A stretch of 7,351 nt of DNA from a candidate division TA06 bacterium SM23_40 (GTDB lineage Bacteria; LJUI01; SM1-40). The notes under the pieces are model-generated. The model searched no databases. It saw only the letters and a list, made by a program, of their open reading frames with translations, and was not told the origin of the DNA. The DNA lies in the NCBI GenBank assembly GCA_001303705.1, contig LJUI01000128.1, forward strand, positions 1 through 7,351. Reading direction: 5' to 3'. A program made the position numbers and the translations under genes. Of the stretch, positions 1,526-7,351 are shown one piece after another; within the stretch, counting starts at the first letter, position 1, and each line of letters starts with the position of its first letter.

Positions 1526-2368
1526 TCATCGCACTGCAACAACGAAGCCGAGGAGTGCAACTGCCCAGCAGTAGAAGGCGAACCGTGCGAGCTTTCCCCG
1601 CCGCACGATCCGAACGAGAAAGAGAAGGGCCAGCCAGCCGGAGAGGAATGCGACCGGCATCCCTGCACTGACGGCCACAGGGTTGAAGAGGCCAAGCCCT
1701 TCACCTTGAGCGGAGAGCAGTTCTTTGGCAGTGGCTCCCGCGATTGCGGGCAGCGCGAGAAGAAATGAGAACTCAACAGCCTCCTCCGCGTCCACCCCAA
1801 GGAGCAGCCCTGCTGCGATCGTCCAGCCTGCGCGGGAGATCCCCGGCAGGAGGGCGAGAGCCTGCGCGCACCCGATCGCCCATGCTCCATAAACACCAAC
1901 CGATCGCTCGGCAGCACTCGACCGATTCTCACCGACCGATCGATCGGCACGAACCGACCCACGTCCGCCCGGCGCGAACCGGGTGAGCCAGAGGATCCCA
2001 CCGGTGGCGGCCAGGGCCAGCGACACAAGCAGTGTGCTCTGGAACGCCCGCTCGACAAGATCATCGAGGAAGAGTCCGGCCATTCCTGCGGGAATGGTCC
2101 CTATGATGATATAGAGGATCAGTCTCCGCGCAGAGCGTCCCTCGTCCTCTCTCGATCCGAGACGCGACAGGATCCACCACAGCCGACGACGAAATACAAC
2201 GATGATCGCAACCATCGTCGCGAAGTGGACCATCACTTCGAAGACGATCCCGTGGGTCTGGGCGCCCAGGAGCTCGCGGGCGAGAACGAGGTGACCCGAA
2301 CTTGATACGGGCAGAAATTCGGTGAGACCCTGAACCAATCCGAGCACGAGAGCCTGGATCAGAGTCAC
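1526..2368 (-). CDS. uppP: Undecaprenyl-diphosphatase (UppP/BacA family)
   Basis: This integral membrane enzyme dephosphorylates undecaprenyl pyrophosphate to undecaprenyl phosphate, recycling the lipid carrier for peptidoglycan and other surface glycans; higher dosage is known to give bacitracin resistance. About 280 residues, normal for the family. Both signature regions are present: QGLTEFLPVSSSGHL near residues 14-28 (conserved Glu 18, His 27) and LLPGISRAGWT near 174-184 (Arg 180), where Ala-Gly-Trp replaces the more usual Ser-Gly-x. Several hydrophobic helices follow. The linker at about residues 134-160 is basic, Ser-rich and carries a repeated RSVG; its DNA contains the 12-base palindrome CCGATCGATCGG at 1936-1947. 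Two GTG codons in tandem (2371 and 2368) can start it. GGAGG at 2379-2375 is 3 bases from the first and 6 from the second, so 2368 is preferred; it also makes a GTGA overlap with the small ORF upstream. Probably last coding gene of the operon. Confidence 0.95.
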   Translation of the reverse strand: MTLIQALVLGLVQGLTEFLPVSSSGHLVLARELLGAQTHGIVFEVMVHFATMVAIIVVFRRRLWWILSRLGSREDEGRSARRLILYIIIGTIPAGMAGLFLDDLVERAFQSTLLVSLALAATGGILWLTRFAPGGRGSVRADRSVGENRSSAAERSVGVYGAWAIGCAQALALLPGISRAGWTIAAGLLLGVDAEEAVEFSFLLALPAIAGATAKELLSAQGEGLGLFNPVAVSAGMPVAFLSGWLALLFLVRIVRRGKLARFAFYCWAVALLGFVVAVR

Positions 2369-2427
2369 CACCCACCTCCCTCACCACCGGCATAGCAGGC
2401 AACGCCAACCGCACGACGCGCAGTCAT
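2365..2427 (-). CDS. Possible 20-codon leader ORF coupled to uppP
   Basis: It lies in the 66-base gap after the prenyltransferase. AAGGAG (2435-2430) sits 2 bases before an ATG at 2427, rather close. The predicted peptide is MTARRAVGVACYAGGEGGGW, Gly-rich and not recognised. Its TGA (2367-2365) overlaps the GTG at 2368 of uppP in a GTGA arrangement, the layout expected for translational coupling. It may be only a ribosome-delivery leader, or a chance ORF; with 20 codons, coding potential cannot be judged. Confidence 0.25.
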   Translation of the reverse strand: MTARRAVGVACYAGGEGGGW

Positions 2428-2437
2428 ATCTCCTTGA

Positions 2438-3280
2438 TCACCCTCCCAGAAAGAGCGCAACGATCCCGATCACTATGCCAATCTTGAGGAGAAGTGACAT
2501 CCGCCCGAGCTTCGCTTTGGAGGGAACACGCACGACGGCGACCGCCAACACGATCAATAGCAGATCGAGGATGGACACCACGACAAGATAGGGAAGACGG
2601 TACCATCCGAGCACGAAGGGGAGCGGTGTGAGGACTACGAGGATGAGCAGAACGGTAGCCGCGAACCGCATCGCCGTCTCCGGCCCCGCGATGATCGCGA
2701 GGCTCCTCACCCCCGTAGGTCGATCGCCCTCGACATCCTCCGCATCCTTGATGGCTTCCCGGCCCAGCGTAATGAGGAACGCAAACAGGGCGGGAAAGAG
2801 CCCTGCCCTGGCACCGCCCCCTGCGATCGCCCCGTAGACGAGGGCCATACCGGTCGCCCCGCTCACGATGAAGTTCCCCAGCACGCCCTGAAGCGCCGTT
2901 GAAACGGCGTACCCGGCCAACGCTACGCTCACGCCAACGGCGATGAGGAATGCGCCGAATCCGACGACAGCGCTTCCCAGGAGCCCCAGTGCGAAGAGGA
3001 TCGCAGAGAGCGCTGCGGCCTCTCCTCTGGTCGCTCTCCCTGACGGCAACGGACGATGCGGCTTGTTGACGCGATCCTTCTCCACATCGAAGATATCATT
3101 GAGCGCGTTCGCGGCTCCGGTAATCATCATCGCCGCGACTGTCGCCACCACGATCGTACCGAACGAAGAGTGCCATCCCGCCATGGCAGCTCCGACAAGG
3201 ACGGATGCCCCGGCGATCAGGCAGTTCTGGGGCCTGGTCAACTCGATGATCGGACCGTACCTCAGACGCTCACGCTCCAT
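2438..3280 (-). CDS. UbiA-family prenyltransferase, digeranylgeranylglyceryl-phosphate synthase-like
   Basis: Membrane prenyltransferase of 280 residues, usual for UbiA enzymes, with roughly eight to nine hydrophobic segments. The first Mg-diphosphate motif is NDIFDVEKD (residues 61-69), followed by RVNKPHRPLPSG; the second is GREAIKDAEDVEGD (173-186; Asp 179, 182, 186). The N-terminal ELTRPQN (13-19) is also typical. The pairing of a NKPxRPxPSG tail with a GREAIKDxEDVEGD second motif is the pattern I associate with archaeal digeranylgeranylglyceryl-phosphate synthases and their bacterial relatives, rather than 4-hydroxybenzoate, homogentisate or heme O enzymes. It would attach a second prenyl ether chain to glycerol-1-phosphate lipid, but another acceptor is possible and no GGGP synthase is in the window. 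ATG at 3280 is supported by AGGAGG (3291-3286), which overlaps the upstream TAG (3292-3290), so translation is probably coupled to the Wzi-like gene. Confidence 0.9.
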   Translation of the reverse strand: MERERLRYGPIIELTRPQNCLIAGASVLVGAAMAGWHSSFGTIVVATVAAMMITGAANALNDIFDVEKDRVNKPHRPLPSGRATRGEAAALSAILFALGLLGSAVVGFGAFLIAVGVSVALAGYAVSTALQGVLGNFIVSGATGMALVYGAIAGGGARAGLFPALFAFLITLGREAIKDAEDVEGDRPTGVRSLAIIAGPETAMRFAATVLLILVVLTPLPFVLGWYRLPYLVVVSILDLLLIVLAVAVVRVPSKAKLGRMSLLLKIGIVIGIVALFLGG

Positions 3281-3289
3281 GTCAGCCTC

Positions 3290-4834
3290 CTAGAAGTCGA
3301 GCCGCACCCAGAACCGCGCCAGCCACTCGCTCGCATAGGCACCATCGTCATGGTCCGGATTCTTCGTCCCCTGCCAGCTCCCTTCGGCAGCGAGGTCGAG
3401 CCGGGCGCCGACCTCGGCCCAGCCCCCCAGCCATAGAGCATCCTTGCGCTCCACGATGCCCGAGGGGAAGGGCGGGAACGCCGTACCCCTCTCGATCTCG
3501 AACGGCAAATGTACGTCTCCCTCACCGTGCCTGGTCGCCCGATAGCCCGCCTCGATCCCCAAGAACGGGAGGAGGCGATGCTCCATCTCGATGTCGAGGC
3601 GATCCGCATCAGGGCCGAGCTCGTGGCCGATGATCGCGCCCCGGTGCTCATATGTGTTTTCTATCTGTTCCTGGGTGTACACCCACTTGTCCAGACGGGC
3701 ATACTCACAACGCACGTCAGTATCCTGGAGGCCCAGCGGATCGGCGAGATAGCAACCCGCGAGGTATCCGAACTTATCCGGCATGACCGGCGGATCCTTC
3801 TCGTACTGCCAGTCGTCGATGAGGAATTCGCCGTCCAGGCGAACCCCATCCAGCGCCTGCCATGATAGATCGACCGACCAGAGGATCTGGTCATCGCGCC
3901 CCCTCACCATCTGTGCGACCAGATAGGGGGAGAGCGGATTGAGGTACAGGGGCTCGGGGCGCTCGGCACCGTACAGAACCGCCTCCGCGATACCCACATC
4001 GAACCCCCACGGCAGACGGACGGTCAGGCGGTGGGCCGAGAAGAATCGCCTCTCTCCGGGCTCGAGTTCGGCGAGAAAGAAAGAGAACTCGACGGGGCGC
4101 AGCACGAGATCCATCTTCACCATATCGAAGAAGTAGGATTCGTCCGAGATGAGAAGCGCCCCGAAGTGGCCGGGCCCCCACCAGACCTGATCCCTCCCCA
4201 CCTCGACCCTGAACCACGGCAAATCATATGCCCAGTACCCCCGGTCGAGAACGAGCGTCGCGCCCTTCCAGAATTGCTGATCAGGACGACCGACCTTCCG
4301 CCACGTATCCTCATCCCAGCGGGTGAGGCGGACTGCCATGGTCTGCTCGAAGACAGGCCCCTCCCCCAGCTGTCCCGCGGCAAGGAGGTCGAGAAAGGTA
4401 GCATAGTCAGGGCGTTCTTCATTCGAGAGGAGGAGTGACTCTGCGAGCGACGCATCGGCGAGGAAGTAGACCTCACTGTATTGCGTTTCGAGGAGCGGCT
4501 CATCGACGACCCCCGGAGCGGATACACCGAGCTCGTGGTCGAATTCGTGGACGAGCTTCGCCAGCCAATGCCGGTCCGCCCGCGAGAGCTGAACGTCTCC
4601 TCGCTCGACATCCCTCTGCAGCTCGCGCACCGCATCAGCAACCTGTCGCCGGGTATAGGGCCGGTGTGCCTGGTTCAGCTCTACCAGACCCTTCGCGTCG
4701 AACCGGTCGAGTATCTCATAGCTCCAGTGCGAGAGCGGTACGTTACGAGACCCCTGGGCCAATGTCGAAACGGCCCCCACTGCGAGGACCAGCGCCGTCC
4801 ACCACACCAGCCAGCCGACCGCTCGCTCCATCAT
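3290..4834 (-). CDS. Outer-membrane protein of the capsule-assembly Wzi-like family
   Basis: 514 residues. A signal peptide is evident: MMERAV, a hydrophobic core to about residue 24, and probable cleavage near Ala 26. A short HWSYEILDRFDAKGLVE segment (36-52) resembles the helical motif often found after the signal in these proteins. The family hallmark is VGRDQVWWGPGHFGALLISD at 212-231. The rest alternates polar and hydrophobic residues with many aromatics, as in a beta-barrel, and the chain ends WVRLDF with a terminal Phe, the usual barrel-insertion signal. Wzi of E. coli K30 is an outer-membrane lectin organising capsule; relatives sit in many envelope loci, so the exact ligand is unknown. 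ATG 4834 follows GAAGGAGG by 4 bases; the adjacent ATG at 4831 is 7 bases away and equally possible. It lies about 45 bases after the radical SAM gene and 9 before the prenyltransferase. Only two Cys (361, 376) occur. Confidence 0.85.
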   Translation of the reverse strand: MMERAVGWLVWWTALVLAVGAVSTLAQGSRNVPLSHWSYEILDRFDAKGLVELNQAHRPYTRRQVADAVRELQRDVERGDVQLSRADRHWLAKLVHEFDHELGVSAPGVVDEPLLETQYSEVYFLADASLAESLLLSNEERPDYATFLDLLAAGQLGEGPVFEQTMAVRLTRWDEDTWRKVGRPDQQFWKGATLVLDRGYWAYDLPWFRVEVGRDQVWWGPGHFGALLISDESYFFDMVKMDLVLRPVEFSFFLAELEPGERRFFSAHRLTVRLPWGFDVGIAEAVLYGAERPEPLYLNPLSPYLVAQMVRGRDDQILWSVDLSWQALDGVRLDGEFLIDDWQYEKDPPVMPDKFGYLAGCYLADPLGLQDTDVRCEYARLDKWVYTQEQIENTYEHRGAIIGHELGPDADRLDIEMEHRLLPFLGIEAGYRATRHGEGDVHLPFEIERGTAFPPFPSGIVERKDALWLGGWAEVGARLDLAAEGSWQGTKNPDHDDGAYASEWLARFWVRLDF

Positions 4835-4879: not shown

Positions 4880-6307
4880 TCAGTCCCATATCCCCTGAAC
4901 CAGCCGCAGCGATGCAAGCCCCAGGATGCGGAAGAAGTAGCGATCCCTCACCCTCATCAGCTTCCGCAACTCTCTCAGCCAGAACTGGGGGCGCCGGTAG
5001 TAGCGTTCGAATGCCCTCAGAGAGATCTGCTCCAGTTCCCCAGACGTGAACCGGGCAAGCCCTCGCTCCGATCCTGCTGTCACGTTCGACTCATCTTCCC
5101 CGATGAGTCCTCGCCGGCGTGCGTCCTCCCACAGCTCGGACCCGTATGCGTAGTCGAGGACCCAGAATGTCGCGAAGTCGAGGGGAATCTCCCTGGCGAA
5201 TGTAAACGTGCGCTCTATCTCCTCCGTGCCCTCAAACGGTGCCCCGATGATGAAATCTCCGACCGTGTACAACCCCACCCGATTGGCGATCTCGACAGCC
5301 CGCCGGTTCATCTCCACCGTGGTCCGTTTGTTGTAGAAATCGAGGACCGTCTGATTCGCCGACTCGAGCCCGAAGACGACAGCCCGCACTCCCGCCCGCC
5401 GCATCTTACGGTACAGCTCCTCATCCACCGCATCAACACGCCCCTGAACCGCCATCGCCAGATCGATCCCTTCTTCGATGATACCGTCCATGATCTGGTG
5501 GACACGCCGCTTGTTCACAGTGAAATTGTCGTCGACGATGCCGAGTATCTCGTACCCCTCCCGATAGACGGTGCGGATCTCGGCGAGGACATTCTGGGCG
5601 CTCCGCTCCCGATACGTCTGGAACGTAACCGCCCCGTGCGCACAGAACGTACAGGAAAACGGGCATCCTCGCGACGTGATCATCGTGGTAATCCTGCTAC
5701 CCATCCGCTCTCCCAGGATGTTGTACCGCCTTGCCTTCTCGGGCGAGCGGACGAGCGACCTCGCGGGGAACCTGATCCGGTCGAGATCGCGCTCGATCGG
5801 CGCCTCCGGACCTCGCCGGATCTGGCCGGTGCGACGGTCGCGGTAGATCGCTCCCGGACAGGATGACGGGTCTCCCCCGTTGAGCAACGTATCGGCGATC
5901 TGGACAATGATCGACTCAGCCTCGCTCACCACAGATACGTCGGCACCGTCGACAGCCCTCGGGTAGAGAATGAGATCAGGCCCCCCGACTACGATCGGCA
6001 ATTCACCGTGGAGAGCACGGATGTCCGCGATCATGGTCTGTGCGTCGGAGCGGTTGAAACTCTGCATCGAGATCCCGACGAGATCGGCATTCCGCACAAT
6101 GAGCTCGAGCCGCTCCCGGCTGTACCCCTCGGCGTTGAAGTCGACGACCTCAACTCCGTACCCGGCATCGAGGAGCTCACGCCCGAGATACAGCAGTCCA
6201 AGCGGGGGAACGATGGCCAGCCGCTGCTTCACCCCCTTCCCCTCAGTGCTTCCCGCGACCGGAGTCCCCGTCTCAGGAAAGAGCAACGCCACATTCTTCG
6301 CCATCAT
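4880..6307 (-). CDS. B12-binding-domain radical SAM protein
   Basis: 475 residues. The N-terminal domain (about 1-150) is a cobalamin-binding-like Rossmann fold: VALLFPE, VPPLGLLYLGRELLDAGYGVEVVDFNAE (33-60), DLVGIS and LPIVVGGPDLILYP; the classical DxHxxG cobalamin ligand is not seen, as is common in this class. A linker leads to the radical SAM core, with CPFSCTFC (Cys 215, 219, 222) for the 4Fe-4S cluster, then GIVDDNF (256-262), VVFGLES (310-316) and GDFIIGAPFEG (350-360). The basic, aromatic C-terminus (about 434-475) is typical of class B methyltransferase and cyclase-like members. The reaction is SAM-dependent radical chemistry, and the substrate is unknown; HpnJ-, BchE- and membrane-lipid-modifying enzymes share this layout. 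As first gene of the envelope-lipid operon it may act on a lipid (inference). Tandem ATGs at 6307 and 6304; GGTGAG abuts the first, so 6304 has somewhat better spacing. Confidence 0.93.
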   Translation of the reverse strand: MMAKNVALLFPETGTPVAGSTEGKGVKQRLAIVPPLGLLYLGRELLDAGYGVEVVDFNAEGYSRERLELIVRNADLVGISMQSFNRSDAQTMIADIRALHGELPIVVGGPDLILYPRAVDGADVSVVSEAESIIVQIADTLLNGGDPSSCPGAIYRDRRTGQIRRGPEAPIERDLDRIRFPARSLVRSPEKARRYNILGERMGSRITTMITSRGCPFSCTFCAHGAVTFQTYRERSAQNVLAEIRTVYREGYEILGIVDDNFTVNKRRVHQIMDGIIEEGIDLAMAVQGRVDAVDEELYRKMRRAGVRAVVFGLESANQTVLDFYNKRTTVEMNRRAVEIANRVGLYTVGDFIIGAPFEGTEEIERTFTFAREIPLDFATFWVLDYAYGSELWEDARRRGLIGEDESNVTAGSERGLARFTSGELEQISLRAFERYYRRPQFWLRELRKLMRVRDRYFFRILGLASLRLVQGIWD

Positions 6308-6389
6308 CTCACCTACACCTAATCAGCGCACCGAAGCTATTGTCTGGACCTGCGCACATTCCGGTGAACGCGCGGCCTTCAATGGCCAC
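6308..6389. other. Leader upstream of the radical SAM gene
   Basis: This is the only non-repetitive DNA between the repeat array and the operon. On the minus strand it carries AGGTGTAGGTGAG (6320-6308), a weak double Shine-Dalgarno-like run before the tandem ATGs. I see no convincing -35/-10 pair here, so the operon promoter may lie within the repeats or upstream of the window. Confidence 0.4.
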
Positions 6390-6450
6390 TCTTCCGAAAG
6401 CGGCGGAGGGGGCTCCCTGCTCGGCCGACGCGAAGCGTCCGCCCCCAGCA
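6390..6450. repeat. Degenerate first repeat unit with a compact hairpin
   Basis: It holds a one-base-shorter version of the repeat core (AAAGCGGCGGAGGGGGCTC, 6397-6415), then diverges. A strong stem follows: GACGC (6427-6431), GAA loop, GCGTC (6435-6439), extended beyond a C-C mismatch by GGC (6423-6425) with GCC (6441-6443). The GACGCGAAGCG sequence recurs in the large hairpin of the later copies (GGACGCGAAGCG), so this is probably a decayed relative. Confidence 0.6.
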
Positions 6451-6595
6451 CATCAGTCCACCCGCACATCCCCGATCAACCAACACGCGCCGCCAGGCCG
6501 ATTCCCTTGCTCGGATCAACATCACCAAAGGCGGCGGAGGGGGCTCATGAGGAGTGAGCTCCGCGGCCGCGCCGGCACACACACTATCAACACCC
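6451..6595. repeat. 145-bp tandem direct repeat, copy 1
   Basis: Bases 6451-6573 align without gaps to 6596-6718 at an offset of 145. Conserved parts include CATCAGTxCACC, CCCCGATCAA, CGCGCCGCCAGGCCGATTC and the 48-bp core at 6526-6573 (CAAAGGCGGCGGAGGGGGCT, a TGAGGAGTGAGCTC part, then CGCGGCCGCGCC). No gene is supported in either orientation. The core G-runs could allow a two-layer G-quadruplex. Confidence 0.8.
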
Positions 6596-6740
6596 CATCA
6601 GTGCACCATCAGACCCCCGATCAAGCATCCCGCGCCGCCAGGCCGATTCCCTTGGTCCGACCAACCTCACCAAAGGCGGCGGAGGGGGCTCGTGAGGAGT
6701 GAGCTCCGCGGCCGCGCCCTCAGCTCACAGACTATCAATA
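6596..6740. repeat. 145-bp tandem direct repeat, copy 2
   Basis: Second copy of the tandem unit, with its core at 6671-6718 differing from copy 1 at one base (CTCGTGAGG against CTCATGAGG). From 6654 on it also belongs to the longer 251-bp repeat. After the core the two families part: here CTCAGCTCAC completes a hairpin absent from copy 1. Confidence 0.8.
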
Positions 6741-6904
6741 GCACGTCAGTCCACCAACAGATCACAGATCGATCAACAGCCGCCGCTGGGCGGACGCGAA
6801 GCGAACGCCCCGCGTCCTCCGCCCTCACCCAACAAACTGAGCATATCACAAAAGATCGATAACAAAGCGACCTGTACCCCACGAAACGCCGCTAGCGAAC
6901 TCCG
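6654..6904. repeat. Long direct repeat, copy A (about 251 bp)
   Basis: It recurs at 7101-7351, offset 447, with about 15 substitutions and no indel counted by eye (roughly 94% identity). It contains two inverted repeats: GTGAGCT (6699-6705) with AGCTCAC (6722-6728), and GGACGCG (6792-6798) with CGCGTCC (6811-6817), loop 12; the latter can be extended by GGGC (6788-6791) with GCCC (6821-6824), or pair alternatively as GGGCGGA with TCCGCCC. No T-run follows either stem on either strand, so they are not ordinary intrinsic terminators. No gene is supported. Confidence 0.9.
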
Positions 6905-7100
6905 AACGAGCCCCATCCGCCGCCCCCTCAACCCCCGTCCTTAACCAGCGGCCCCCCGATCAACCCGCGAACTCGAGATCTAACAGACCCACAATCACAC
7001 GACGTCGGCACCAACACCACCGCCAAGTCAATCCCCGGTGCTCCAAGCCACCGCACCTCGACCAACTCTTGCCCCCGAGCTCACGCGAACCGTCCGCCCC
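6905..7100. other. Unique spacer between the two long repeats
   Basis: C- and A-rich on the plus strand, with no supported ORF, RNA gene, strong inverted repeat or promoter that I can see. It shares no obvious sequence with the flanking repeats. Confidence 0.5.
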
Positions 7101-7351
7101 AGTCTGACCAACATCACCAAAGGCGGCGGAGGGGGCTCGTGAGGAGTGAGCTCCGCGGCCGCGCCCTCAGCTCACAAACTATCAACAACGCATCAGTCCA
7201 CCAACAGATCACAGATCGATGAACATCCGCCGCTGGGCGGACGCGAAGCGAACGCCCCGCGTCCTCCGCCCTCACCCAACAAACTGAGCATACCACAAAA
7301 GATCGATAACAAAACGACCTGCACATCACGAAATGCCGCTAGCGAACTCCG
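7101..7351. repeat. Long direct repeat, copy B (reaches window edge)
   Basis: Copy of 6654-6904. Core at 7118-7165; both hairpins are conserved at +447 (7146-7152 with 7169-7175; 7239-7245 with 7258-7264), and the substitutions counted fall outside the stems. Similarity is still intact at the last base, so the repeat probably continues beyond the window. Confidence 0.88.

Follow-up and report, generated by a model that had tools for sequence, protein, structure and literature searches.

Results

The window, the whole 7,351-nucleotide stretch of DNA analysed here, takes up the full length of one contig, C90. The bacterial genome to which it belongs was assembled from a metagenome, spans 2.88 Mb in 189 contigs and is 89.8% complete with 1.3% contamination; we examined it by targeted searches and through sequence stretches. 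Four genes run on the same strand in the order radical SAM, Wzi, UbiA and UppP, separated by gaps of 45, 9 and 66 bp (Table 1); the UppP and Wzi-like neighbours of the UbiA gene had both been named correctly in a sequence-only reading of this DNA. As the sole BacA-family gene found in the genome, the window's UppP is probably the housekeeping undecaprenyl-diphosphate phosphatase. The radical SAM protein is nearest to BchE/HpnJ-type models and could modify a lipid, yet its gene is not conserved beside relatives of the prenyltransferase elsewhere. Kinship with tetraether synthase was considered and rejected, both for this lack of conserved adjacency and because the best solved relatives are AprD4 and B12 methyltransferases, with tetraether synthase absent among them. 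Also on the same strand, a truncated gene of the alkaline-phosphatase superfamily (sulfatase/phosphodiesterase-like; positions 2-970) extends past the contig end. Positions 6340-7351 hold about 1 kb of intergenic DNA built of repeated units, to which no gene was assigned; these comprise a 250-nt direct repeat (94% identity, spacing 447 nt), a 128-nt unit (spacing 145 nt) and a recurring 31-nt inverted arm with GGCGGCGGAGGGGGCTC.

Table 1. Coordinates of the features discussed; positions are those of the window unless another contig is named, and Mj denotes the M. jannaschii enzyme.
Feature	Position	Strand	Basis and remarks
UppP/BacA undecaprenyl-diphosphate phosphatase	1526-2371	-	Profile; GTG start; 66 bp downstream of the prenyltransferase gene
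UbiA-superfamily prenyltransferase, DGGGP synthase family, 280 aa	2438-3280	-	Profile, tree, predicted structure; ATG start
Motif 3, residues 173-186, GREAIKDAEDVEGD	2723-2764	-	Alignment; D179, D182, D186 = Mj D180, D183, D187
Motif 2 position, residues 124-129	2894-2911	-	Alignment; Y124 = Mj Y125, kept; Mj K130 replaced by A129
Motif 1, residues 61-81, NDIFDVEKDRVNKPHRPLPSG	3038-3100	-	Alignment; N61, D65, D69 = Mj N62, D66, D70
Wzi-family outer-membrane barrel protein	3290-4834	-	Profile; 9 bp upstream of the prenyltransferase gene
B12-binding radical SAM protein	4880-6307	-	Profile; first gene of the run
GGGP synthase	C164, 12126-12881		TIGR01769, 213 bits (cut-off 161.6)

By its Pfam profile (PF01040; E 5.9e-39), the protein encoded between Wzi and UppP belongs to the UbiA superfamily, scoring 134 bits where the curated cut-off is 34.2. 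Among informative NCBIfam models it scores highest to PRK12884 ('prenyltransferase'), at 230 bits, followed by PRK12882 ('geranylgeranylglycerol-phosphate geranylgeranyltransferase'), at 184 bits. The NCBIfam equivalog cut-offs for digeranylgeranylglyceryl phosphate (DGGGP) synthase, hereafter DGGGPS, lie above the scores obtained (PRK12882, 184 vs 296 bits; PRK12883, 144 vs 353; PRK12884 likewise below its own), and on the same protein the chlorophyll synthase models reach at most 68 bits and the MenA/UbiA models at most 45. The closest solved structure by sequence is the M. jannaschii DGGGPS (MjDGGGPS; 6m31, 151.6 bits), with chlorophyll synthase (ChlG) next at 45 bits. An AlphaFold2 model built from 35 aligned relatives (pLDDT 94.2, pTM 0.90) points to the same fold, in that Foldseek places the DGGGPS structures 7bpu/6m31 first (E ~1e-14, TM 0.80) and gives no other UbiA structure a value better than E 1e-8. 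Three trees group the protein with archaeal and bacterial DGGGPS homologues; with outgroups that are few and long-branched, the DGGGPS family stands apart from MenA, UbiA and ChlG (support 90/99 for four outgroup proteins), and when six outgroup proteins are used its support is 75/73. The window protein sits on a long end branch, and the trees do not fix its position within the family. A scan of named genomes for homologues returned almost exclusively archaea and FCB-type or allied bacteria (KSB1, Calditrichota, Kryptonia, Ignavibacteria, Bacteroidota, Zixibacteria, Neomarinimicrobiota, Poribacteria and one Cloacimonadota).

UbiA members share Asp-rich motifs and a change of acceptor is common in the superfamily, so that a quinone, chlorophyll, heme or other aromatic prenyltransferase might resemble DGGGPS through these shared motifs only. 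We regard this as extremely improbable and have ruled out the quinone, heme and chlorophyll enzymes: scores to such families are far lower, the tree excludes it, and the genome carries separate homologues of MenA (C21) and of decaprenyl-phosphate phosphoribosyltransferase (C6). A third further UbiA protein, the second UbiA below, is encoded on C170 (L012:93-2886), in one run of genes that also codes for a polysaccharide deacetylase and a lipid A acyltransferase. On profile scores, phylogeny and predicted fold, we thus assign the window gene to the DGGGPS family. The DGGGPS-like identity proposed from motifs alone is borne out by all three, including the UbiA phylogeny suggested at the time as a check, which at 90/99 support puts the protein with DGGGPS homologues and outside any quinone or aromatic clade.

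The motifs behind that proposal are present exactly as they had been quoted, with NDIFDVEKD at residues 61-69, NKPHRPLPSG at 72-81 and GREAIKDAEDVEGD at 173-186. Mutations reduce the activity of MjDGGGPS at N62, D66, D70, Y125, D180, D183 and D187 (review PMC9385802), and by alignment all seven residues are kept in the window protein (Table 1). The lysine of motif 2, whose necessity (as K130) we did not find tested in that review, is replaced by alanine at a position that is Lys in 75 of 78 relatives (Arg in two, Gln in one) and nearly always Lys or Arg in further relatives inspected; the DGGGPS of G321, the closest relative found (45% identity), retains it. A compensating double frameshift was rejected as the source of the missing lysine, since the codons, read by eye, gave no convincing alternative. 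In the GGPP tunnel, Mj F148 is replaced by L147, a change also seen in an archaeal (Metallosphaera) and in other relatives.

Loss of the motif-2 lysine weakens the case for a DGGGP synthase without excluding it and, as the only catalytic-motif feature lacking, is our main ground for caution on substrate or rate. Perhaps the protein is a DGGGPS-family enzyme with a shifted substrate, one whose acceptor is still a glycerol-phosphate prenyl ether and whose donor is longer or different, or one whose product is a glycolipid precursor of the mono- or diether kind instead of bulk membrane lipid. A129 and L147 would then reflect the shift, and the long end branch and the operon with Wzi and UppP would fit it as well. 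We nevertheless consider such a shift unlikely, as the catalytic Asp, Asn and Tyr residues are all kept, the lysine loss is common to no group of relatives, and the Phe-to-Leu change occurs in relatives that include an archaeal one.

Further evidence for a DGGGP synthase-type enzyme comes from the rest of the genome, where a GGGP synthase (GGGPS), the presence of which had been suggested as a check, scores above its curated cut-off on a 40-kb contig (C164), unlinked to the window gene. This GGGPS gives ~180 bits to group II enzymes of the F. johnsoniae and M. thermautotrophicus type and 42 bits to PcrB. Directly upstream lies a geranylgeranyl reductase (GGR; TIGR02032, 214 bits, cut-off 159) whose best solved match is 3oz2, a digeranylgeranylglycerophospholipid reductase, and downstream lie rmlA- and rmlD-like genes followed, as read from the sequence, by ispE, prs, rplY and pth; by this gene content C164 is a bacterial contig. 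GGR normally acts on an archaeal-type product, and its presence here argues against a shifted substrate. In favour of such a shift, the single polyprenyl synthase found (C76) resembles octaprenyl/solanesyl synthases, and five positions ahead of the first Asp-rich motif it carries Ala in place of an aromatic limiter. With this long-chain-like enzyme as the only one found, a GGPP supply is presumptive and the tails may differ in length from C20. A bacterial acyl-lipid gene, plsY, is also present (C189). CarS and G1P dehydrogenase, proposed earlier as further genes to seek, were not found by genome search of this 89.8% complete assembly; the one candidate for the latter, an Fe-ADH match on C45, was rejected as an iron alcohol dehydrogenase (27 bits to the G1P dehydrogenase model, cut-off 413).

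With two loci on different contigs of a metagenome assembly in 189 pieces (estimated contamination 1.3%), either C90 or C164 might come from another organism, in which case the pathway would not reside in one cell. Such a binning artefact seems very unlikely to us. The tetranucleotide correlation between the window and five stretches of four contigs of its own genome is 0.49-0.63, within the span of these slices among themselves (0.44-0.69) and above that for nearly all other genomes (0.13-0.49); GC content agrees (0.62 vs 0.58-0.62); and a single genome, G321, is the top match for both DGGGPS (45%) and GGGPS (57%).

The pairing of the two genes extends to other bacteria. GGGPS is above cut-off in 42 of 49 genomes with close bacterial DGGGPS homologues. 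Among 290 bacterial genomes picked solely as relatives of the host, it occurs in 32 of the 38 with a DGGGPS homologue (at least 90 bits) and in 17 of the 252 without one (Fisher p 3e-24, a value that is indicative only because the 90-bit line was set after the scores were seen and the genomes are non-independent). In the genome set searched, the host is the only representative of its phylum.

Gene order around DGGGPS recurs as well. UppP lies beside DGGGPS in seven of the 29 genomes with the best homologues, spanning five families (G321, G316, G304, G178, G148, G286 and G118), and Wzi is also present in three of these seven; an additional genome (G221) has Wzi alone. By our own estimate for a 3000-gene genome, chance alone would produce such adjacency in roughly one of every thousand genomes. 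In a separate set of 80 loci, the Wzi-DGGGPS-UppP order was seen only in bacterium AUK263 (L088, 548-6661), where the genes run TPR, Wzi, DGGGPS, UppP, valS and where Wzi and DGGGPS overlap by one base. A TPR gene and/or Wzi upstream of DGGGPS and UppP downstream mark this locus and loci L155, L156, L157, L159, L160 and L161, all from distant bacteria. The DGGGPS sequences with linked Wzi/UppP do not form one clade in the tree, and the arrangement would therefore be either old and often lost or have arisen repeatedly.

On the GGGPS side, rmlA/rmlD-like genes follow GGGPS in G321, G316 and G178 also. At loci L163, L164 and L165, in three genomes from two families, GGGPS has alaS close to one flank and rmlA/rmlD-like genes at the other; L164 has a TdeIII-type restriction endonuclease and a methylase inserted in between. 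In two Poribacteria (L036:2910-9784 and L047:2977-10010), DGGGPS, GGR and GGGPS stand in one cluster, in the order bamA (Omp85), OmpH/Skp-like, lpxD, polysaccharide deacetylase, second UbiA, DGGGPS, at least one intervening gene, GGR and GGGPS, so that GGR and GGGPS follow one another as in the host. The second UbiA and the deacetylase of these clusters are homologous to the pair on C170 of the host (41-45% and 32-37% identity, respectively). Co-localisation of GGGPS and DGGGPS in bacteria has been described as seemingly restricted to Cloacimonetes (PMC7852524), and the Poribacteria clusters extend it beyond that group.

Discussion

In the DGGGPS family, the established reaction is prenylation of GGGP at its C-2 hydroxyl, which gives the lipid its second chain. 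We think it likely that the window gene encodes an enzyme of this type, which would form the second ether bond in a lipid pathway of archaeal type whose genes lie at two separate loci. This reading is favoured by the family placement and predicted fold, the seven kept residues, GGGPS, GGR and PlsY in the same genome, the co-occurrence with GGGPS elsewhere and the Poribacteria clusters. Weighing against it are the alanine at the motif-2 lysine position, scores under the DGGGPS equivalog cut-offs, the long-chain-like polyprenyl synthase, the failure to find G1P dehydrogenase and CarS in an assembly of 89.8% completeness, and the separation of DGGGPS from GGGPS. In the proposed route, the GGGPS on C164 would join a prenyl diphosphate to glycerol phosphate, and the window enzyme, predicted by homology to MjDGGGPS to be Mg2+-dependent with nine transmembrane helices, would add the second prenyl chain. 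The chains would then be saturated by the GGR encoded beside GGGPS. Because CarS was not found, we invoke a bacterial CDP-diacylglycerol synthase for activation of the product, a probable step that the literature shows to be possible in E. coli, and head groups may likewise be attached by bacterial enzymes. Since PlsY is present, the pathway would yield a mixed membrane of ether lipids and ordinary acyl phospholipids. The capacity for archaeal-type ether lipids in a bacterial host, raised by the sequence-only reading, thus finds support at the level of genes, with DGGGPS, GGGPS and GGR encoded in one genome beside PlsY.

That DGGGPS is linked to surface-glycan genes is an observation of gene order, mechanism aside. 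It is conceivable, though in our judgement unlikely, that the ether lipid is part of an outer-membrane or surface-glycan system, for example as an anchor or carrier, and not a bulk phospholipid; the grounds for this tentative suggestion are that DGGGPS is kept with a Wzi-type barrel and UppP, which recycles undecaprenyl phosphate, and GGGPS beside rmlA/rmlD, across distant families, and that the full Poribacteria set is grouped with bamA, lpxD, a polysaccharide deacetylase and the second UbiA. Our literature search found no paper joining an archaeal lipid with Wzi and UppP, and the recurring position of DGGGPS next to genes for the outer surface seems to have gone unreported. Its recurrence in distant bacteria, along with that of GGGPS-rmlA/rmlD, suggests the cell surface as the place to seek the lipid's purpose, and both gene orders can serve as markers for finding more hosts. 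More broadly, the host adds another bacterial lineage apparently able to build archaeal-type ether lipids together with acyl lipids, which bears on the lipid divide.

Archaeal-type ether-lipid genes in bacteria are of a kind known since 2020 (PMC7852524); what the present case adds is its host lineage, a DGGGPS that has lost the motif-2 lysine, and a conserved setting among surface genes. Like the pathway of Cloacimonetes and other FCB bacteria (Villanueva et al. 2020, PMC7852524), that of the host sets GGGPS, DGGGPS and GGR next to bacterial acyl-lipid genes, and the Cloacimonetes assemblies share with it the failure to find CarS or G1P dehydrogenase. For the Cloacimonetes pair, GGGPS was active in vitro, and co-expression of GGGPS and DGGGPS in E. 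coli gave PG-archaeol (PMC7852524). Unlike in Cloacimonetes, DGGGPS and GGGPS are unlinked in the host, the former in a Wzi-DGGGPS-UppP operon and the latter beside GGR and rmlA/rmlD, and only one polyprenyl synthase was found.

Compared with MjDGGGPS (6m31, 6m34, 7bpu), the window protein is 35% identical, has the same fold in its predicted model (TM 0.80) and shares the Asp-rich motifs and the equivalents of N62 and Y125; it differs in the replacement of Lys130 by Ala and of tunnel residue F148 by Leu, and in its bacterial host. In the heptaprenylglyceryl phosphate pathway of Bacillus, PcrB is a bacterial enzyme of the GGGPS superfamily that makes a prenyl-glycerol-phosphate ether, and the host resembles Bacillus in employing a member of this superfamily for what would be such an ether. 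The two differ in that the host enzyme scores far closer to group II GGGPS than to PcrB and is accompanied by DGGGPS, and with both present, a diether would be expected in the host rather than an acetylated monoether of the PcrB type.
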